The notes beneath the pieces were generated by a model that was not told the origin of the DNA, did not search any database, and saw only the letters and a program-made list of their open reading frames with translations. From assembly GCA_030684395.1 (NCBI GenBank), contig JAUXTT010000025.1:1-64000 (forward strand): a stretch of 64,000 nucleotides of DNA. Direction: 5' to 3'. This document shows, one piece after another, positions 5,408 to 20,951 of the stretch (positions are counted from its first letter, which is position 1; the number at the start of each line of letters is the position of its first letter). The translations under genes and the position numbers were made by a program. Source of the DNA: Bacteroidota bacterium (GTDB taxonomy: Bacteria; Bacteroidota; Bacteroidia; B-17B0; Aurantibacillaceae).

Positions 5408-6670
5408 TTAACTATACGATTTAATCAGTTCGGAAATTCGAGCCAGTCCCATCTTCATGTTTTCTTCAGTAGGTCCAAACGAAAAACGTATGTATTGGTT
5501 AAATTCAGGACGCTTTTTTTCCTGTCCGGGATGAATACCAAACATATATCCGGGCACTGTTATTACTTTATGTTTGAGTGCTTCTTTAAAAAAAGAAATG
5601 GAATCATTTAATGGCGAAGGGAGTTTACTAATGTCTGCCCAAATATAAAAAGTACTGTTGGCATCAGCTGAACAGCTCATTCCATTTTTGCGCAGTGTGT
5701 TTAACATGATATTGTGTTTTCTACTAAAAACTTCTCGCAAAGCTTTTGTATCTGTATCAACATATTCAGGCTCGAATAATTGAAGTGTGGCCCTTTGTAT
5801 TGGAACACTTGGTCCGCCATCAATGGCGCTGGCTGCTCTACCTAGATTTTCTATAACCGCTGATGGGCCCAGTATCCAAGCTAATCGCCAACCTGGATAA
5901 CGAAATGATTTGGTTAAACCATCTACAATTAAAACCGGATCGGTATTCACATCTTCTATAAATGCAGCAGATGAAACTGCTTCAGAAGCAGGGTTTCCGT
6001 TCTCATAAATAAAGTGAGAGTAAAATTCATCAATAATAAGAGTGCAATTTTCTTCTTTAGCGATCTTCAAATAAGCTTTTAATTCTTCGCCCTTAAGTAC
6101 ATGTCCCGTTGGATTGCAGGGATTACTAAACAAAAAAGCATCTAAGTCATATTCTTTTATTGCTTCAACAAATTTAGCCGAGGAAATAGAATGATTATTT
6201 TCCTTTTTTGAAGGGAGATAAACAGGTGTGATTCTGTCTAATTGATAATTCAACATATCATGATATGCGGGGTACTCGGGAGTTTTATAACCCAACCTTA
6301 TTTTTCCAAGAATTGCAAAGATGCGCGTAAGAGCTAAACGGCCTCCCATTGCAATACTAACATTGTTAGCGGTGTATTTAGAAGTTTTATCCTTTCTGTA
6401 AAGGCGATTATAATGATCAGCAATGGTTTTTCTTAAGACTTCTATTCCATTTGTCGGACCGTATCGATCATCATTAGGTTCAATAGTGAATCCTTCAATT
6501 CGTTCAGCACCTCCTGCTAATTTCCCAACCTCCGGTTCACCTTGCCCAAGGTTTGCCCATTCAGGATTTCCGTTATAAAAACCAAGTTTAGCAGCTTCAT
6601 CTATCACCCAAATTACGCCAATATCGGCAAGCTCATTAAATACACTCTCAGGCTTCATCTTTAGTTCCAT
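5408..6670 (-). CDS. PLP-dependent aminotransferase, class I/II
   Basis: 420 residues. Fold-type I signature residues are visible: SNPCNPTGH (Asn about 186), LIIDEFYSHF (Asp about 214), Lys254 in VDGLTKSFRYPGWRLAW as the Schiff-base lysine, and Arg about 395 in IRFSFGPT for the substrate carboxylate. It transfers amino groups between an amino acid and a 2-oxo acid; which ones cannot be read. The ATG at 6670 overlaps the preceding membrane-protein gene by 23 bases, and a second ATG at 6658 is also possible. The cyanophycinase-like gene follows by one base. Translational coupling across the operon is likely. Confidence 0.92.
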   Translation of the reverse strand: MELKMKPESVFNELADIGVIWVIDEAAKLGFYNGNPEWANLGQGEPEVGKLAGGAERIEGFTIEPNDDRYGPTNGIEVLRKTIADHYNRLYRKDKTSKYTANNVSIAMGGRLALTRIFAILGKIRLGYKTPEYPAYHDMLNYQLDRITPVYLPSKKENNHSISSAKFVEAIKEYDLDAFLFSNPCNPTGHVLKGEELKAYLKIAKEENCTLIIDEFYSHFIYENGNPASEAVSSAAFIEDVNTDPVLIVDGLTKSFRYPGWRLAWILGPSAVIENLGRAASAIDGGPSVPIQRATLQLFEPEYVDTDTKALREVFSRKHNIMLNTLRKNGMSCSADANSTFYIWADISKLPSPLNDSISFFKEALKHKVITVPGYMFGIHPGQEKKRPEFNQYIRFSFGPTEENMKMGLARISELIKSYS

Positions 6671-7133
6671 TTGTATTTACAGGTAAGTTCTTTTTATATT
6701 TTTTTATTTCATAACTAAGTATCACTAAAAGATAGAAGGTGAGATCGCCAACCAATTTTCCAACAAGAATTCCAAACGTGAAATTTTTCAATACACCCGG
6801 AAATAAATACATAAAAAACGGGCGTAAAACTAATCCATCAAGCAAACCAGCAGGCCCAAATTCCAAAACAATATTACCGGTGATTTTAGTGAGATCTGAA
6901 ATTGAAAAGACTTTCTCTTTAGCTCTGTTTTTTTTATTTGCACCAATGATATGCTGAGTAAAAACGGTTGAGTAAAAACCAATAGCTTCTCCTAATGAAC
7001 CCGCATACGCAATAACAATCAGATTGGAAGAAAACAGATGAGTAATACTTGCCGCAGCAACGGCTGTTACGGTCCCTACAATTTCAGCCGGTAAATATCG
7101 CTTAAGCCATTCCTTGATCTTTCTTTTTACCAT
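6648..7133 (-). CDS. Multi-pass membrane protein, unknown function
   Basis: 161 residues with about four hydrophobic segments (around residues 16-38, 39-55, 85-110 with a Pro/Gly-rich AGLLDGLVLRPFFMYLFPG, and 117-140), a basic start (MVKRKIKEWLKRYL) and a basic, soluble tail. No known family is recognised. It is the third gene of the five-gene operon, 5 bases after catalase and overlapping the aminotransferase. The position suggests an anchor, transporter or small-molecule channel for the pathway, but the sequence does not show which. Confidence 0.75.
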   Translation of the reverse strand: MVKRKIKEWLKRYLPAEIVGTVTAVAAASITHLFSSNLIVIAYAGSLGEAIGFYSTVFTQHIIGANKKNRAKEKVFSISDLTKITGNIVLEFGPAGLLDGLVLRPFFMYLFPGVLKNFTFGILVGKLVGDLTFYLLVILSYEIKKYKKNLPVNTNGTKDEA

Positions 7134-7138
7134 TGAGG

Positions 7139-8623
7139 TTAATGCTTCATCATTTTTTCATCAATACTAATACCCAAACCCTGAGCTACTGCCATTCCTA
7201 AACCAATATCAGTTCTGAAGAAATGACAAAGCTGGCGGTTAATGATCTCGCTTTTCTTTTCGCCTGTAATGCCACTCATAGAACTAACAATATTAGATAC
7301 GGTATTTTTACGTTCCTCATCCGTCATCACTTTTTTGAATAAAATACACGGCTGGGTATAATGATCATTATCTCCGGCATCATTTCTATCATACCAATCT
7401 GCTACATTATTATCCAATTGCATCGCAGGTTGCTTATACGATTCATCCACAACAATATCATCAAAACTATTAGGAAAATAATTAGGACTATCTTCTCCAT
7501 TCCCATCTGTGCACATGGATCCGTCGCGCTGATAATTATTTACTATGTAAGGACATTTGTTCACGGGTAGTTGCTCGTAGTTAACACCTAAACGATAACG
7601 ATGTGCATCGGGATATGACAATAAACGACCTTGCAACAGTTTATCAGGTGAATAGCTAATGCCGTTAATAACATTAGCCGGAGCAAATGCAGCTTGTTCT
7701 ACTTCTGCAAAATAGTTTTTCGGAATTTCATTCAGCTCAAATGTTCCAACATCTATCAGTGGAAAATCTCCATGTGGCCATACTTTGGTAACATCAAATG
7801 GATTGTATGGAAAATCCTTTGCTTCTTCGTTTGTCATTACTTGTATTTTCATGTCCCACTTCGGAAAATCTTTTTTCTCAATAGCATCAACCAGATCACG
7901 TTGAGCATGATCGGGATCAATACCCCGCATTTCATTTGCTTCTTTTCCTGTAAAATTTTTAATTCCTTGTTGCGTAATGAAATGAAATTTAACCCAAACC
8001 TTTTCGTTTTTTGCATTGATCATAGAGAAGGTGTGGCTTCCAAAACCATGCATATGTCTGTACGAAAAAGGTGTACCTCTATCGCTCATTAAAATCACAA
8101 TCTGATGTAAACTTTCGGGATTATAGCTCCAGAAATCCCACATCATTGCAGGGCTTTTCAAATTTGTTTTAGGATCGCGTTTTTGAGTATGTATAAAATC
8201 ACTGAACTTTTTTGGGTCTTTAATAAAAAACACCGGTGTATTATTTCCAACCAGATCCCAGTTTCCTTCTTCGGTATAAAACTTCATAGCAAAGCCACGT
8301 GGATCTCTTTCTGTATCGGCACTTCCCTTTTCTCCACCTACTTGAGAAAAACGAATAAATAGTTTACATGAATTACCTGGCTTGCTGAATAATTTTGCTT
8401 TAGTATATTGTGTGATGTCATTTGTAACTGTAAATTTCCCATAAGCACCGGTACCTTTTGCGTGCACCACCCGTTCAGGAATACGCTCACGGTTAAAGTG
8501 CGCCATTTTTTCATGCAGGATAAAGTCCTGTAGTAATAATGGACCTCTTGCTCCAACACTCATGGTGTTTTCATTTTCAGTATAAGGAATCCCCGCAGCG
8601 GTCGTTAATTTCTTTTTTTTCAT
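7139..8623 (-). CDS. katA: Catalase, heme-type (clade with about 490 residues)
   Basis: 494 residues, the length of small-subunit monofunctional catalases. The distal His54 lies in RIPERVVHAKGTGAYG, the distal Asn in LVGNNTPVFFIKD, and the heme-ligand Tyr in RLLSYPDAHRYRLGVNY with QLPVN following. It breaks down hydrogen peroxide in the cytoplasm. It is the second gene of the five-gene operon, 13 bases after the decarboxylase-like gene. A catalase in such a tight metabolic operon suggests that a neighbouring enzyme makes peroxide, or that the operon answers oxidative stress. No OxyR or PerR site was identified. The gene symbol is by family, not by proven orthology. Confidence 0.97.
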   Translation of the reverse strand: MKKKKLTTAAGIPYTENENTMSVGARGPLLLQDFILHEKMAHFNRERIPERVVHAKGTGAYGKFTVTNDITQYTKAKLFSKPGNSCKLFIRFSQVGGEKGSADTERDPRGFAMKFYTEEGNWDLVGNNTPVFFIKDPKKFSDFIHTQKRDPKTNLKSPAMMWDFWSYNPESLHQIVILMSDRGTPFSYRHMHGFGSHTFSMINAKNEKVWVKFHFITQQGIKNFTGKEANEMRGIDPDHAQRDLVDAIEKKDFPKWDMKIQVMTNEEAKDFPYNPFDVTKVWPHGDFPLIDVGTFELNEIPKNYFAEVEQAAFAPANVINGISYSPDKLLQGRLLSYPDAHRYRLGVNYEQLPVNKCPYIVNNYQRDGSMCTDGNGEDSPNYFPNSFDDIVVDESYKQPAMQLDNNVADWYDRNDAGDNDHYTQPCILFKKVMTDEERKNTVSNIVSSMSGITGEKKSEIINRQLCHFFRTDIGLGMAVAQGLGISIDEKMMKH

Positions 8624-8636
8624 TTTATATTTTTAA

Positions 8637-9791
8637 TTAGCTCCATTTAATTACCGGATAAGCGCGACCGATCTTAGTTCCCATTTTATAATGCACTGTT
8701 GGTTGTGCCGATAAACTTACATTGCTTGATGATTCAAACACCAAAATAATATCAGAGCCTCCAAATTGGAAATAAGATAGTTCTTCTCCTTTACGAACCG
8801 TCACTCCTACCTCTGCTGTAATAATTACAGAAGACACCTGCGACATGCCAATTGGCAAAACTGCTACGAGGCCGATTGGAGTATCAAGTACAATTAAACC
8901 TCTTGTTTGTGCAAACTGGTATCCCGTTACATCAAAGTCTTCGTAAACTCTTTTAAGTTCCAGCTTATGAGTTCCCGGATCCTCTTCCTGTGCTTTTACT
9001 TTTACATCCTGATATACCTGTCCATGAATAACACGTGCTTCTAACACTTTTCCTCCGATTGGTGCATGCTGACGATGATAATCTAAGGGGCTTAAGTATG
9101 AATGCATAAATATTCCATTTTCAAATCGATCTTTGTATGGACTTCCTTCTAATAACTCGCTTATTTTCCAATTAAGGTTTTTAACCGTAACGCTAGAATC
9201 TTTTCTGATCTCCCACTGTCCGGCGAAAGTTGAATCTGCCGGCATTACAATAACCGCTTGGTCTGATACTGCCGCTATAGGTCTATAGCCCGGCTTGAAA
9301 TGTCTCGCAAAGATCTGGTTAAACGTTTTCCATCCACCATGAGGTTTGGAATACTCATGCATATTGTAAGATGGTGTATCATAAAACGTTTTTTCAGATT
9401 CTTCTGTCAACGATTCAGGTGTATCATGAAAAGCCCCCAAAGCATTTGCATAGTCAACCAACCACTTTGAAAATGGGGTGAGAGCCAAAGCTTTATCATA
9501 AGGAACTACTTTGTTTTGTAATGACAAAAGCGGTTCCTGATCCGCAATAAAATAAGAAGCACTCAAATGATCATTCACGCATCCTCCGGAAGAATCTTCC
9601 TGAGGAATCCAATACAAAAACTCATTCATCCAATCTAAATACTGATCTAGTGTTACCACATTCTCTATAAGAGGGAGTTTTTTGCTGTGTGCACTTTTAA
9701 TAGCAGTTTCAAAATCGCTTGTCCAATTGTTTTTCTTTATCAGGTTTACCAATTCTTCAATAACAGGGTGGTACTTTCTTTTGGTTGACAT
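8637..9791 (-). CDS. Phosphatidylserine-decarboxylase-family pyruvoyl enzyme, PsiD-like
   Basis: 384 residues in two parts: an N-terminal PSDC-type domain (about residues 10-160, ending GGWKTFNQIFARHF) and a C-terminal PS-decarboxylase domain (about 165-384). Family residues include LDYHRQHAPIGG (His239, His242), GMSQVSSV, and the self-cleavage site FQFGGSD with Ser346 as predicted precursor of the pyruvoyl group. GGS replaces the LGST of classical Psd. There are no membrane helices. The same two-domain, GGS-motif layout is found in fungal tryptophan decarboxylase PsiD, so the likely substrate is a free amino acid rather than phosphatidylserine. This is inference by architecture. It is the first gene of a five-gene operon with catalase, a membrane protein, an aminotransferase and an S51 peptidase. 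Confidence 0.88.
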   Translation of the reverse strand: MSTKRKYHPVIEELVNLIKKNNWTSDFETAIKSAHSKKLPLIENVVTLDQYLDWMNEFLYWIPQEDSSGGCVNDHLSASYFIADQEPLLSLQNKVVPYDKALALTPFSKWLVDYANALGAFHDTPESLTEESEKTFYDTPSYNMHEYSKPHGGWKTFNQIFARHFKPGYRPIAAVSDQAVIVMPADSTFAGQWEIRKDSSVTVKNLNWKISELLEGSPYKDRFENGIFMHSYLSPLDYHRQHAPIGGKVLEARVIHGQVYQDVKVKAQEEDPGTHKLELKRVYEDFDVTGYQFAQTRGLIVLDTPIGLVAVLPIGMSQVSSVIITAEVGVTVRKGEELSYFQFGGSDIILVFESSSNVSLSAQPTVHYKMGTKIGRAYPVIKWS

Positions 9792-10135
9792 ATATCGTGG
9801 TTTTTATTTTTATTTCACTGAATTTTTCACAGGCAGATAACTCTCTCCTTCTTAATTGCAAGGTTCATGATTATAAAAACGAATCAATTGCATAATTTTT
9901 TAAATATGTTACATATATCGCAGTTTGATCGGGTCCAATTCTGAAGGTTTTGAGGCTACTTAATTAATGATATCGACGAATTCAATAGGAAAAGGAGGTT
10001 TTGGGCGATTAATGGAATAATATAATGGGATAATCCCGATATATGGGTGTACCTTTACTACAAGTGCCATTCTTGAAAGATCTTAAAACAAATGGTACTC
10101 ATTTAAAACTTCTTGCAACATCAAAATAGTTCTTA
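9792..10135. other. Intergenic region upstream of the five-gene operon
   Basis: 344 bases between the divergent decarboxylase-like gene and the receiver gene. It should hold the operon promoter on the minus strand, but no clear TAnnTTTG box or palindrome stood out. The + strand has short fragments that resemble the glycine-rich end of a histidine kinase ATPase domain in broken frames (for example around 9975-10010), which would fit the receiver gene being a remnant. This resemblance is weak. Confidence 0.3.
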
Positions 10136-10627
10136 ATGAAATCTGCAGGCACATTAAAAAAAGCGAAGTTCTCCATTCCCGAAAAGGATGAAAAAGGTGT
10201 TTTTTCTATTCGTGAAAAAGATGCAGTAGAAGTAGCTAAGGAAATTAAACACCTAAAAGTATTGGTGGGGGAAGATATGAGACTCAATCAATTACTTATG
10301 AAGATCATTTTAACTGATTTCGGTTTTGAACATGATATCGTTTCAAATGGAAAATTAATCATCGAAAAATTACTTGCAAATTCATATGACATTATCTTAA
10401 TGGACTTACATATGCCGGAAATGGACGGGTTTGAAGCAGCCGAGTACATTCGTGTTACAATGAATTCCAAAATACCTATTATTGCTTTAACTGCGGATGC
10501 TATCCCAGCTGACCTGGAAAAATTTATGGCATCCGGAATGAATGATTATATCTCAAAACCTGTTGAAGACGACTTATTATACAGCAAAATGGTTTCTTTA
10601 GTAGAAAACTCCACGTTCGCAAAATAA
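10136..10627 (+). CDS. Receiver-only response regulator, possibly remnant of a hybrid kinase
   Basis: 163 residues. After a 38-residue polar leader, a single CheY-like receiver domain runs from KVLVGEDMRLNQ to VENSTFAK. The phosphoacceptor is Asp90 in YDIILMDLHMPEMDG; the conserved Thr is in IIALTAD and Lys in DYISKPV. The acidic pocket shows GED rather than the usual DD pair plus N, a form common in receivers at the C-terminus of hybrid kinases. The leader, including KAKFSIPEK, resembles the last strand of a kinase ATPase domain. A stop codon lies directly upstream in frame. No output domain is present, and it has no partner gene beside it. Confidence 0.8.
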   Translation: MKSAGTLKKAKFSIPEKDEKGVFSIREKDAVEVAKEIKHLKVLVGEDMRLNQLLMKIILTDFGFEHDIVSNGKLIIEKLLANSYDIILMDLHMPEMDGFEAAEYIRVTMNSKIPIIALTADAIPADLEKFMASGMNDYISKPVEDDLLYSKMVSLVENSTFAK

Positions 10628-12884: not shown

Positions 12885-13358
12885 TTATTTCTCTTCTTTT
12901 TCCTTTTTATCTTTCTTTTTGTCCTTTTTCGGTTTTTCTTTCCCACTGAAAGTGGCGTTTTTTTTATCTTTTCCTTTCTTGGTGATTCTCATTGATCCTT
13001 CAATTTCGAAGTTATCCACTACACATTTAAATTCGAAGACCTCTTCTTTAGCTAATTCAGTTGTTGCTAAAACCTCGATGTATTCTCTTTCTTCACCTTC
13101 TTCCGTATAGGTTGAATCTTTTACTAATTCGTACTTGATCCAGGTTCCTATACCCAATTTCTGATCAGCGAAATCACCACAAAAAACTTTTCCATCTTTA
13201 AAAGAAATTTCATCAGGAATTGCCTTAGGTTTTTTCCCATCAATTATTGAAACCGTAAAATCACGTTTATGTAATCTGTCTTTCGCAATAGTAAAAGCAA
13301 ACGCCAAGCTACTTACAACAAGCACAACTGCTATTCTTGAAAATATTTTCCTGTTCAT
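12885..13358 (-). CDS. Secreted protein with lysine-rich tail, unknown
   Basis: 157 residues. An N-terminal signal peptide (MNRKIFSRIAVVLVVSSLAFAFTIA) is followed by a roughly 100-residue mature part with alternating beta pattern (FTVSIIDGKKPKAIPDEISF, VFEFKCVVDNFEIEGSMRIT). The last 25 residues are almost all K, E and D. No family was recognised. Single Cys residues near 59 and 111 could pair after export. It is preceded by its own promoter region and ends in a strong terminator, so it is a single-gene unit. The basic tail may bind anionic envelope polymers, but this is a guess. Confidence 0.65.
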   Translation of the reverse strand: MNRKIFSRIAVVLVVSSLAFAFTIAKDRLHKRDFTVSIIDGKKPKAIPDEISFKDGKVFCGDFADQKLGIGTWIKYELVKDSTYTEEGEEREYIEVLATTELAKEEVFEFKCVVDNFEIEGSMRITKKGKDKKNATFSGKEKPKKDKKKDKKEKEEK

Positions 13359-13493
13359 AATTTATTGATTTATTAGTTAATTATCTGGTACCAATATAAT
13401 TTCGTAATCCTGTTTTTACAAATTTAAGGAATAATTAAAAAAGTCCCTATTATTTTATCAACCTTCCCACACATAAACAAATTACGTACCAGT

Positions 13494-14831
13494 TTATCGG
13501 TTAAACGACAATCGTTTACCAAAGTGCGATTCATTGAATTTGCCTTCATCAAACACCAGGTTTCCATTTACAAAGGTTTTTTTTATGGATGAAGCAAAAG
13601 TATGTCCTTCAAATGGCGACCAGCCACATTTTGAAAGAATATTCTTCCTCTCAACTGTTGTAGGTTGTTTTAAATCTACCAAAACCAGATCAGCAAAATA
13701 ACCTTCCCTTAAATAACCACGATCCTTGATCTGAAAAATATCCGCCACATTATGACTCATTTTTTGCACGATCATCTCCAGAGATATTTTTCCTTGTTTG
13801 TAAAGATCTATCATGGCAATTATAGCATGTTGAACCAATGGTCCGCCACTTGGAGCCTGTAGGTATTTCTGGGATTTTTCTTCTATGGTATGAGGTGCGT
13901 GATCCGTTGCTATTATATCAACTCTCCCATCTTTAACAGCTTCCAGAATATTGTCGCGGTCATACATAGTTTTTACTGCCGGATTCCATTTGATCCAATT
14001 GCCTTTTGTTTTGTAATCAGCATCACTGAACCACAAATGGTGTATACAAGCTTCAGATGTGATGCGTTTATCTTTTAAAGGAATTTTATTGGTGAATAAG
14101 GAAAGTTCTTTTGCTGTAGAGATATGTAAAATGTGCAAACGTGTATTGTGTTTTTTAGCCAATTCAACTGCCATACTTGATGATTTATAGCAGGCTTCCT
14201 CGCTTCGAATGATTGGGTGGAAAGTAGCATCAATATCTTCTCCGTATTCTTCAACAATCCGCTTTTGATTTTCCTTCACCATTGGGTCATACTCGCAATG
14301 CGTTGCAATCAATGTATCAACGGAAGAAAATATCTTTTCCAACGTTTCCCTGTTATCAACCAGCATACTTCCGGTTGAAGAGCCCATAAACAATTTTAAG
14401 CCGCATACTTCCTTAAAATCCACTTTTTTTATTTCTTCTAAATTGGTGTTTGTACCACCCATAAAGAAAGAATAATTGGCCAAAGAACATTCAGAGGCAC
14501 GCTTATATTTTTTATTCAGCTCCTCCAGCGTTGTTGCCTGCGGGTTGGTATTCGGCATTTCCATATAAGAAGTAATACCGCCTGCAACAGCTGCCTTTGC
14601 TTCTGTATATATTTCACCTTTATGAGTTAATCCCGGCTCACGAAAATGCACCTGATCGTCGATAGCGCCCGGCAACAGGTAAAGTCCTTTAGCATCAATA
14701 ACAGTTGCCTTCATATCATTCTCAATTTCATTCTCAATTCTGGAAATGCGATCATCTTCGATAAGCACATCAGCTACAAAAATTTCGTTTTCGTTTACCA
14801 GTGTAGCTTGTTTAATAAGGTATTTAGACAT
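13494..14831 (-). CDS. pyrC: Dihydroorotase (class I)
   Basis: 445 residues. It catalyses ring closure of carbamoyl-aspartate to dihydroorotate in pyrimidine synthesis. Landmarks are LLPGAIDDQVHFREPGLTHK (about 53-72), CGLKLFMGSSTGSML with the lysine expected to be carboxylated between two metals, ATHCEYDP, LHILHIST, and IATDHAPHT with the catalytic Asp. The first metal motif reads Q-V-H (Gln60, His62) where most class I enzymes have H-x-H; this substitution is common in Bacteroidota dihydroorotases, so it does not by itself argue for loss of activity. Divergent pyrR-pyrB lies 270 bases away, which supports the pathway assignment. Confidence 0.93.
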   Translation of the reverse strand: MSKYLIKQATLVNENEIFVADVLIEDDRISRIENEIENDMKATVIDAKGLYLLPGAIDDQVHFREPGLTHKGEIYTEAKAAVAGGITSYMEMPNTNPQATTLEELNKKYKRASECSLANYSFFMGGTNTNLEEIKKVDFKEVCGLKLFMGSSTGSMLVDNRETLEKIFSSVDTLIATHCEYDPMVKENQKRIVEEYGEDIDATFHPIIRSEEACYKSSSMAVELAKKHNTRLHILHISTAKELSLFTNKIPLKDKRITSEACIHHLWFSDADYKTKGNWIKWNPAVKTMYDRDNILEAVKDGRVDIIATDHAPHTIEEKSQKYLQAPSGGPLVQHAIIAMIDLYKQGKISLEMIVQKMSHNVADIFQIKDRGYLREGYFADLVLVDLKQPTTVERKNILSKCGWSPFEGHTFASSIKKTFVNGNLVFDEGKFNESHFGKRLSFNR

Positions 14832-14893
14832 AAGGCGGATTTTATCTGCTCCAAAATTAAGGAATTATTCGTTGAATATCGGATTAGTTTTTT

Positions 14894-15026
14894 GCCGCGG
14901 ATTTGAGCAGATTACACAGTTTTTTAGTAGAATTAAGATGCGAAATTGCCATGGGTTATAAGCCTGTTAATATCTTATAATTATTGCAACGTCACATAAA
15001 TCAACATTATCTGCGTAATCTGCGGC
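14894..15026. repeat. Inverted repeat pair in pyrC-pyrR spacer
   Basis: GCCGCGGATTTGAGCAGATT (14894 onward) is repeated inverted as ATCTGCGTAATCTGCGGC (15009-15026). This type of CAGATTACGCAGAT spacer repeat is scattered through many Bacteroidota genomes. Function unknown. Confidence 0.5.
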
Positions 15027-15101
15027 TTTATTTCTTAACGCATTGTAATCCGTAGCAATTAATTTTTAACTTTACTGCCTACAATCATACAATAATTGTA
15101 G

Positions 15102-15641
15102 ATGAAGCCAAGAGTTATTTTAGAAGGCGAACAATTGGAGGTTACCATAACCCGTTTGTGTCACCAATTGATAGAAGTTCACGACAATTTTCAGAATAGT
15201 GTAATTATTGGTTTACAGCCACGTGGTATTTATTTGGCAAAACGAATTCACGCCAAACTTTCTTCGATCCTTAAAAACAAGAACATTCAACTGGGTGAAT
15301 TGGATACTACTTTTTTCAGAGATGATTTCAGAAGAAAAGAACTGATCCCGAATAAAACCAATATCGATTTTATAATTGAAGAAAAAAATGTGGTGCTGAT
15401 AGATGACGTTTTATTCACTGGCAGAACCATACGCGCAGGGCTAGATGCTATGCTTGCATTCGGCAGACCAAAAGATGTGGAGTTATTGGTATTGATAGAC
15501 AGAAGATTCAGCCGACACTTACCAATACAGGCAAAATACATTGGAAAAACAATTGACTCCATTGAATCGCAAAAAGTACGGGTTGATTGGGAAGAGACAG
15601 AAGGAAAAGACAGAGTAACATTATTAACGGATAAAGACTAA
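15102..15641 (+). CDS. pyrR: PyrR bifunctional pyrimidine regulator / uracil phosphoribosyltransferase
   Basis: 179 residues, standard PyrR size. The PRPP-binding loop is VVLIDDVLFTGRTIRAGLDAM; other PyrR segments are VIIGLQPRGIYLAKRI, ELDTTFFRDDFRR and LVLIDRRFSRHLPIQAKYIG. In many bacteria PyrR binds pyr mRNA leaders in response to UMP and has weak UPRTase activity. Here pyrB follows by 54 bases, in the classic order. No PyrR-binding anti-antiterminator was found in the 270-base leader. A short inverted repeat (TACAAT at 15080, ATTGTA at 15095) sits just before the ATG, and a TAACTTTA -7 box at 15067-15074. Whether regulation is by attenuation is open. Confidence 0.93.
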   Translation: MKPRVILEGEQLEVTITRLCHQLIEVHDNFQNSVIIGLQPRGIYLAKRIHAKLSSILKNKNIQLGELDTTFFRDDFRRKELIPNKTNIDFIIEEKNVVLIDDVLFTGRTIRAGLDAMLAFGRPKDVELLVLIDRRFSRHLPIQAKYIGKTIDSIESQKVRVDWEETEGKDRVTLLTDKD

Positions 15642-19907: not shown

Positions 19908-20951
19908 ATGACAAAACAAGATAAAATAAACAACTTTGATCCGAACAGTGTTGGAGATACAACTGCAGGAATGTTTGGATTACCATTTACATTAGATGAA
20001 TGCGAAACCGTTTTAATTCCTGTACCCTGGGAAGTAACCGTTAGTTATAGTGGCGGGACGGCTAATGGTCCGGGAGCTATTTATGACGCCTCTTTTCAGG
20101 TTGATCTTTATGATCCGAATAAAAAAGATGCATGGAAGTTAGGGATTGGAATGGACGAAATAAATGAAGACCTTCATGGAATAAGCGATACATACAGGGA
20201 AGTGGCAGAAGGTCTTATTGATCTAATGTCAGCGGGAGAAAATGTGGCTGATAGCTCTGAGTTCGATGATATCAACAAGGCATGTTCTGATATGAATGCA
20301 TGGGTGAAAGAACGTGTATTGCATTTCTTAAAACAAAATAAAACAGTTGGATTAATAGGTGGAGATCATTCAACTCCATTGGGTATGATGCAGGCACTTT
20401 CTGAACATTTCGGGAAATTTGCCATTTTACAAATTGATGCGCATGCCGATTTGCGCATTGCTTATGAAGGTTTCGAATTTTCGCATGCATCTATTATGTA
20501 CAATGCTCTGAAAATTGACACTATTGAGAAGCTGGTTCAAGTGGGAATACGTGATTATTGCGAAGAGGAATTGAACATTATCAACGAATCAAAAGGAAGA
20601 ATAAAAACATTTTTCGACAGAGACATCAGGCAGGCAAGTTATGCAGGCGAAAACTGGCAACAAACCTGCGATAGAATTGTGAAGGAACTTCCTAATAATA
20701 TTTATTTGAGCTTTGATATTGACGGATTGGACCCGAAATTATGCCCGAATACAGGGACTCCTGTTGCAGGAGGTTTTGAAGCAGAACAAGTTTTATATCT
20801 AATTGAACAAGTTGTGAAATCGGGTAAAAAATTCGTTGCATTTGATATTAATGAAGTTACTCCCGGTGAAGAAAACGAATGGGATGCAAACGTTGCCGCA
20901 CGCTTGTTATATAGAATTGCCAATTTAGTAATGATGTCGCAGGGGAAATAA
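19908..20951 (+). CDS. Arginase/agmatinase-family ureohydrolase
   Basis: 347 residues. Binuclear manganese ligands are in GLIGGDHSTPLG (about 150), ILQIDAHADLR (about 176-182) and LSFDIDGLDPKLCPNTGTP (about 266). Members hydrolyse the guanidino or formimino group of arginine, agmatine, formimidoylglutamate and similar compounds. The length and extended middle region match the 'agmatinase family' group of Bacteroidota, whose exact substrate is often unclear. The TrmH-type gene starts inside its stop codon (TAATG overlap), so the two are translationally coupled. Confidence 0.9.
   Translation: MTKQDKINNFDPNSVGDTTAGMFGLPFTLDECETVLIPVPWEVTVSYSGGTANGPGAIYDASFQVDLYDPNKKDAWKLGIGMDEINEDLHGISDTYREVAEGLIDLMSAGENVADSSEFDDINKACSDMNAWVKERVLHFLKQNKTVGLIGGDHSTPLGMMQALSEHFGKFAILQIDAHADLRIAYEGFEFSHASIMYNALKIDTIEKLVQVGIRDYCEEELNIINESKGRIKTFFDRDIRQASYAGENWQQTCDRIVKELPNNIYLSFDIDGLDPKLCPNTGTPVAGGFEAEQVLYLIEQVVKSGKKFVAFDINEVTPGEENEWDANVAARLLYRIANLVMMSQGK

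Follow-up and report, generated by a model that had tools for sequence, protein, structure and literature searches.

The psdL locus and its gene row

The window, by which we mean the whole stretch of 64,000 nucleotides analysed here from a contig of a Bacteroidota bacterium, carries on its minus strand an open reading frame, psdL, whose product belongs to the superfamily of phosphatidylserine decarboxylases (PSD; Psd in the names of the lipid enzymes). The first-pass annotation had delimited this frame and recognized its catalytic family, and both readings hold (Table 1), the PF02666 score being 162 bits for a cut-off of 22. psdL is followed on the same strand by genes for a catalase, a hydrophobic protein of 161 residues, a PLP enzyme and an S51 peptidase, with successive gaps of 13, 5, -23 and 1 bases. 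No phospholipid gene occurs among these co-directional neighbours, as that annotation had pointed out.

Two of the neighbours could be characterized further by their motifs. All seven copies of the PLP enzyme have a TKSF lysine motif. The S51 peptidase retains GTSAG, which includes the nucleophile, TGGDQ and D-HF--R-R--R. It has these motifs in common with the cyanophycinase CphB (TIGR02069; PDB 3en0, 7uqv), but it is a distinct paralogue that travels with psdL and is only remotely similar to the canonical CphB of the same genome, which is encoded next to cphA. The arginase/agmatinase-family gene is on the opposite strand at a distance of 10 kb and is unlinked to the operon; should agmatine be formed, its product could act next.

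Table 1. Features of psdL and of surrounding genes in the window (locus counts refer to the 26 loci compared).
Feature	Position	Strand	Basis
psdL, PSD-superfamily pyruvoyl decarboxylase, GGSD subfamily	8637..9791	-	ORF of 384 aa, ATG start; PF02666 E 1.9e-47
N-terminal PsiD/PSDC-type domain (predicted), psdL aa ~5-150	9342..9779	-	hhalign E 4.1e-7; structure alignment
PF02666 catalytic domain, psdL aa 157-376	8664..9323	-	Pfam match
Gly345-Ser346-Asp347, predicted self-cleavage/pyruvoyl site with clade-specific Asp	8751..8759	-	Sequence; Ser346 and Asp347 invariant in 26/26
Catalase, second operon gene, 13-base gap to psdL	7139..8623	-	PF00199 E 5.5e-193; near psdL in at least 5/26 loci
161-aa hydrophobic, probably membrane protein, unknown family	6648..7133	-	No Pfam match; at least 9/26 loci
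PLP enzyme, aminotransferase class I/II	5408..6670	-	PF00155; best NCBIfam GntC, 138.8 bits, below cut-off of 415
Cyanophycinase-like S51 peptidase, a paralogue additional to the canonical CphB of this genome	4549..5406	-	TIGR02069 186.3 bits, cut-off 126.6
Arginase/agmatinase-family protein	19908..20951	+	PF00491; TIGR01230 agmatinase 161.2 bits, just below cut-off of 174.3

Catalytic domain and predicted cleavage site

We identified 25 relatives of psdL that are 64-89% identical to the window protein, and those with a name come mostly from Bacteroidota MAGs. Besides the two site residues listed in Table 1, Gly345, Asp186, Asp237 and His239 are invariant in all 26 aligned proteins, and Gly344-Gly345-Ser346 is invariant in all five proteins of a smaller set. 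The GGSD sequence recurs in a 433-aa homologue from another Bacteroidia genome (locus L018) and in viral homologues. As we read the alignment, Asp186, Asp237, His239 and Ser346 are the counterparts of D90, D142, H144 and S254 of E. coli PSD, whose maturation uses D90/D142-H144-S254 according to the relevant passages of PMC7952604. At the positions of Asp186 and Asp237, Glu and Ser/Thr are found in PsiD-type proteins. His242 also counts among the PSD-type residues of the alignment, and our position matching places Phe157 and Phe161 opposite Phe63 and Phe67, given in the same passages as acyl-chain contacts of the E. coli enzyme.

The presence of GGS in place of LGST had been taken as an indication that psdL acts on a free amino acid. 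Ser346 and its GGS context are real and invariant, but they are not diagnostic, because GGST also occurs in long Psd from Fusobacterium and from three loci of Bacteroidia (L068-L070). GGS was thus ruled out as a mark of amino acid decarboxylases. Judged from the sequences, the distinctive cleavage site of psdL is GGSD, not GGS, and the replacement of Thr/Ser by Asp347 could make self-cleavage slower or otherwise alter it.

The absence of a membrane helix, also claimed at the outset, agrees with the prediction: no membrane helix was predicted in psdL, and its sole hydrophobic peak (KD 1.99, residues 306-324) falls on beta strands of the predicted model. Amphipathic attachment to a membrane is still conceivable.

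The N-terminal domain and the predicted fold

The protein had been described as having a PSDC domain followed by a PS-decarboxylase domain. The Pfam family of the former (PF12588) does not match psdL even at E<=10; of eight control and relative proteins scanned, it matched two, both bacterial and PsiD-like (L065, L021). By contrast, hhalign relates the N-terminal domain of the GGSD group to that of the PSDC/PsiD group with a probability of 92.8% and an E-value of 4.1e-7 (86.0% in the reverse direction) when 27 and 12 rows are used, whereas a thinner, earlier comparison of 21 and 7 rows gave only 22.6% and 9.2e-4. The final alignments had gained the viral and L018 rows and lost L035, L037 and L039 at the motif cut. 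The 22 control comparisons, made with 11 other families of the neighbourhood, all remained at or below 0.5%.

The predicted structure points in the same direction. An AlphaFold model built from 29 sequences, including the viral and tandem rows, has a pLDDT of 79.9 and a pTM of 0.74; a first model, built from 26 close rows, reached a pLDDT of only 55.1 and was discarded. The best PDB match of the retained model is the fungal L-tryptophan decarboxylase PsiD (8zia; Z 21.6, rmsd 3.7, 297 residues), aligned over model residues 5-343 (VIA). The second is an Aspergillus oryzae enzyme named arginine decarboxylase in the title of its PDB entry (9jf5; Z 20.8, 306 residues), and since the error of Z is about 1 the two are tied. 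E. coli PSD follows with a Z of 15.2 over 203 residues, beginning only at model residue 109, and Foldseek likewise places PsiD and the arginine decarboxylase above it. The Pfam assignment of the N-terminal domain thus failed, but the two-domain layout itself, of the PsiD/arginine-decarboxylase type, is supported by the hhalign comparison and by the predicted model.

Resemblance to these enzymes is nevertheless partial. PsiD (PDB 8x4q, 8zia) shares with psdL the two domains, the PF02666-type catalytic part, the GGS site and a preceding GMxxxS segment, but the two are only 16% identical in the fold alignment, and they differ at Asp186 and Asp237 (Glu and Thr/Ser in PsiD-type proteins), in PF12588, which finds no match in psdL, and in the cleavage site, which is GGSS in PsiD (PMC6121855) and GGSD in psdL. 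The A. oryzae enzyme (PDB 9jer, 9jf5), a member of the PSD superfamily whose substrate is a free amino acid by its entry title, has the same fold and domains and is 21% identical to psdL, but belongs to the PSDC/PsiD clade and not to the GGSD clade. With E. coli PSD (PDB 7cnw, 6l06) psdL shares the catalytic domain, the Gly-Ser site and the acid/base residues (D90, D142-H144); the N-terminal domain is another one, the site is LGST instead of GGSD, and the two branch apart in the tree.

Relation to true Psd and to bacterial PsiD-like proteins

The phylogeny that the first-pass annotation had called for, including PsiD and Psd, was computed on the PF02666 columns alone for 48 rows, 10 of them from the close family of 26; an earlier tree of 47 rows with 13 close-family proteins gave the same picture. 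The GGSD rows form one clade (support 100/99). The PSDC/PsiD rows form another, starred (100/99), and psdL is outside it. A starred branch (99/97) groups both and excludes all long (8 rows) and short (9 rows) Psd, so psdL stands apart from the membrane enzymes in this tree, and the clustering with them that would have spoken against the first-pass proposal was not seen. The position of the GGSD clade immediately beside the PSDC/PsiD clade has lower support (92/62, unstarred), and a topology that unites GGSD and long Psd survives the AU test (p 0.242). On the whole the tree favours the PsiD side without settling the matter. The proposal that psdL is an enzyme of the PsiD clade is not upheld: it sits in a separate GGSD clade and has PSD-like acid/base residues (Asp186, Asp237-His239).

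Profile scores also separate psdL from the lipid enzymes. It remains below the NCBIfam cut-offs for Psd equivalogs, with a best score of 107.8 bits against 371, and 89.9 against 111.75 for TIGR00163. Its own genome encodes a second PF02666 protein, a short Psd of 225-230 aa with a strongly hydrophobic N-terminal segment. A PF02666 match above the cut-off was found in all 119 class genomes searched, and psdL is hence an additional gene where it is present.

Bacterial proteins with a PSDC domain, such as those of Enterobacter (pUPC1) and Photobacterium, resemble psdL in their two-domain layout. They differ from it in matching PF12588 (in the two members scanned), in having GGST and a CES motif, and in forming the separate starred clade. 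Such PsiD-like bacterial proteins are already in public records, which takes away part of the claim that psdL widens the set of pyruvoyl amino acid decarboxylases; the GGSD clade and its link with cyanophycin are the new part. A basic amino acid/polyamine antiporter adjoins the PsiD-type gene in two of six annotated bacterial loci and is lacking in the other four. Given these antiporter neighbours, the bacterial PSDC proteins probably act on free amino acids. On plasmids of Enterobacter cancerogenus (L097, 2451-5251) and Photobacterium damselae (L101, 1497-4359) the PSDC-type gene comes directly after the antiporter, an arrangement that looks like an amino-acid decarboxylase/antiporter pair. 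Two further arrangements were seen in passing: a Pyrinomonadaceae MAG has a PSDC-clade gene in tandem after psdL (L044, 352-3166), and in a Bacteroidia genome the PSDC-type gene is split across two overlapping frames (L067, 1360-2749).

Gene neighbourhoods and the link with cyanophycin

We compared 26 loci, those of the 25 relatives and the window, and since some contigs end near psdL the counts are lower bounds. An S51 gene was found near psdL in at least 13 loci, a DUF155 gene in 10, the gene for the 161-aa protein in 9, the PLP enzyme in 7 and the catalase in 5. The 161-aa and DUF155 proteins occupy the same place after psdL and never occur together (9/26 and 10/26), as though they were interchangeable in function. 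The 13 loci without a nearby S51 gene, some of them cut by contig ends, include L025, whose protein is 89% identical to that of the window; L025, L032 and L038 lack the gene in spite of long flanks. At L029 the S51 paralogue (9579-10325) is without the block of the catalytic serine, and may be a decayed or misassembled copy.

Cyanophycin is a poly-aspartate chain with arginine on the side chains, from which cyanophycinase frees beta-Asp-Arg (PMC10206079). Among 291 genomes of the class, the S51 paralogue (E<=1e-85) occurs in four, and these are all among the five that have psdL (at least 73% identity); the hypergeometric p-value of 1.7e-8 ignores shared descent, which inflates the figure. In one of the four genomes the two genes are on different contigs. 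CphA (E<=1e-100) is encoded in 19 of 24 psdL genomes (L025 left out), compared with 120 of the 291 in the class sample, an enrichment (Fisher p 3.7e-4 once psdL genomes are removed from the sample) that is uncorrected for descent and MAG completeness.

Some loci place the pieces side by side. A single contig of 16,266 bases (L126) carries cphA, canonical cphB, the S51 paralogue, DUF155, psdL and a gene for an IaaA-type peptidase (iaaA), and L039 has the same row minus cphA. In the genome of the window, cphA and canonical cphB are divergent on another stretch (L059, 7691-16356) that also includes an IaaA-type peptidase. A large frame near them (13026-15203) reads like a catalase-peroxidase, judged from its start.

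The association of psdL with cyanophycin, which the first-pass annotation had missed, is the new and interesting part of the finding. Among the papers listed in a search of the open-licence literature, none joins a PSD-type enzyme with cyanophycin; the one in which phosphatidylserine decarboxylase and cyanophycinase both turned up is taxonomic. A link may still have been published elsewhere.

Copies in viral contigs

Relatives of psdL also occur in the viral collection IMG/VR, where two wider alignments retrieved three and five loci; the alignment of the close family found no match there. Four viral contigs, of 398, 173, 417 and 32 kb (among L118-L124), encode a GGSD protein of 358-359 aa. These proteins are 73-83% identical to one another and, for the three that were aligned, 41-42% identical to the window protein. 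Three of the four contigs are of huge-phage size, their phage status following from the label of the collection and from contig size, and HNH endonuclease genes lie near the GGSD gene in both loci checked. Among named phages the viral protein had only distant Psd-like matches (6 of 50,697 records), and PHROGs holds no family for it. Pyruvoyl decarboxylases for arginine and ornithine, with a different fold, have been described from phages before (PMC9992855).

Discussion

The family of psdL, its intact active-site residues, its architecture, its operon and its co-occurrence with a cyanophycinase paralogue were all established by computation. What the enzyme acts on has to be argued from them. 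The suggestion that psdL uses a free amino acid and not phosphatidylserine is a reasonable one: the motif logic that first led to it was wrong, but the predicted fold and the genomic context strengthen it, and the tree also favours it, as does the existence of another Psd in the genome. On balance we think it somewhat probable, from sequences and model, that psdL takes a small substrate of the amino-acid type and is part of cyanophycin or arginine metabolism. Such a change of substrate would need a changed pocket, because E. coli PSD is inactive on serine, phosphoserine and glycerophosphoserine, according to the passages cited from PMC7952604.

The scheme that we favour would run as follows. 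psdL would be made as a soluble two-domain proenzyme that cleaves itself between Gly345 and Ser346, turning Ser346 into the pyruvoyl group. The mature enzyme would decarboxylate a small alpha-amino acid, or a dipeptide of amino acids, and would have lost its activity on phosphatidylserine. Beta-Asp-Arg, liberated by the second cyanophycinase encoded in the operon, would be hydrolysed by an isoaspartyl peptidase, and psdL would then handle the arginine half; L-arginine from cyanophycin breakdown is the likeliest substrate, and agmatine would be the product. The PLP enzyme of the operon may act on a related intermediate. There is a precedent for such a route in Anabaena, where the arginine of cyanophycin is used via arginine decarboxylase and agmatinase (as summarized in PMC4234267).

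The identity of the amino acid is a more tentative matter, and arginine is our guess from context. It is favoured over aspartate because the fungal arginine enzyme has the same fold, antiporters adjoin some PsiD-type genes, SpeA is rare and PanD common in psdL genomes, although each of these points is weak. The biosynthetic SpeA, which is one family of arginine decarboxylases, is absent from the genome of the window and present in two of the 25 psdL genomes.

A rather unlikely alternative, but one that fits several observations, is that psdL decarboxylates beta-Asp-Arg itself, yielding beta-alanyl-arginine, a carnosine-like dipeptide, with no prior split to amino acids. The dipeptide is a chemical analogue of phosphatidylserine, hence this reading: the alpha-amino and alpha-carboxyl groups of its aspartate are free and the side chain is extended, as in phosphatidylserine, and the PSD-type acid/base residues of psdL belong to a kind of enzyme whose substrate is an amino acid bearing a bulky side-chain substituent. 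A dedicated second cyanophycinase would supply the substrate; all four genomes that have it also have psdL, and it is found in 13 of 26 loci. The statement in PMC10206079 that the isoaspartyl dipeptidases of Bacteroidota are still undiscovered would also fit. Against it, the IaaA-type peptidase in the genome of the window and in L126 could split the dipeptide, and the argument is purely chemical. We know of no enzyme with beta-Asp-Arg decarboxylase activity. Taken to its full extent, the idea would amount to an undescribed branch of cyanophycin use in Bacteroidota, in which the second cyanophycinase delivers beta-Asp-Arg to a GGSD decarboxylase as a mimic of phosphatidylserine and beta-alanyl-arginine is formed, with the same type of enzyme encoded in viral contigs of huge-phage size; as a whole we consider this chain unlikely.

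It is improbable, in our view, that psdL is a paralogue with an altered N-terminus that decarboxylates phosphatidylserine or another lipid-linked serine, working at the membrane with the 161-aa protein. Membership of PF02666, the PSD-type residues Asp186, Asp237-His239 and His242, and the phenylalanines at acyl-contact positions are what one would expect of such an enzyme; the AU test leaves a grouping with Psd standing (p 0.242), and in 19 of 26 loci the gene after psdL encodes a hydrophobic or DUF155 protein. But psdL falls under all NCBIfam cut-offs for Psd, its GMxQVSS and GGSD sites differ from those of Psd, and its N-terminal domain aligns in the predicted model to that of PsiD and not to three amphipathic helices. 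The genome also has a normal Psd, and no lipid gene lies nearby.

Decarboxylation of L-aspartate, the other product of cyanophycin, to beta-alanine shares the cyanophycin context with the readings above, and pyruvoyl chemistry is established for the aspartate decarboxylase PanD. PanD is however encoded in the genome of the window and in 20 of the 25 psdL genomes, which leaves no gap to fill, and we set this as very improbable for the main role of psdL. Least probable of all is a role on aromatic amino acids, as in fungal PsiD: PsiD is the closest fold match (Z 21.6), but the arginine decarboxylase equals it within error (Z 20.8), psdL has GGSD and not GGSS and lies outside the PsiD clade, and its neighbours suggest aspartate or arginine rather than aromatic amino acids.

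If the favoured reading of psdL as an amino-acid-type decarboxylase is true, the genes now named 'phosphatidylserine decarboxylase' would include a separate bacterial clade whose members are soluble decarboxylases of amino acids with ties to cyanophycin, and GGSD would be a simple sequence mark that separates them from the lipid enzymes. The repertoire of viral metabolic genes would gain a new pyruvoyl decarboxylase through the copies in viral contigs. For some Bacteroidota, psdL would then account for the fate of the arginine or of the dipeptide derived from cyanophycin, whose downstream steps are described as unsettled in PMC10206079.
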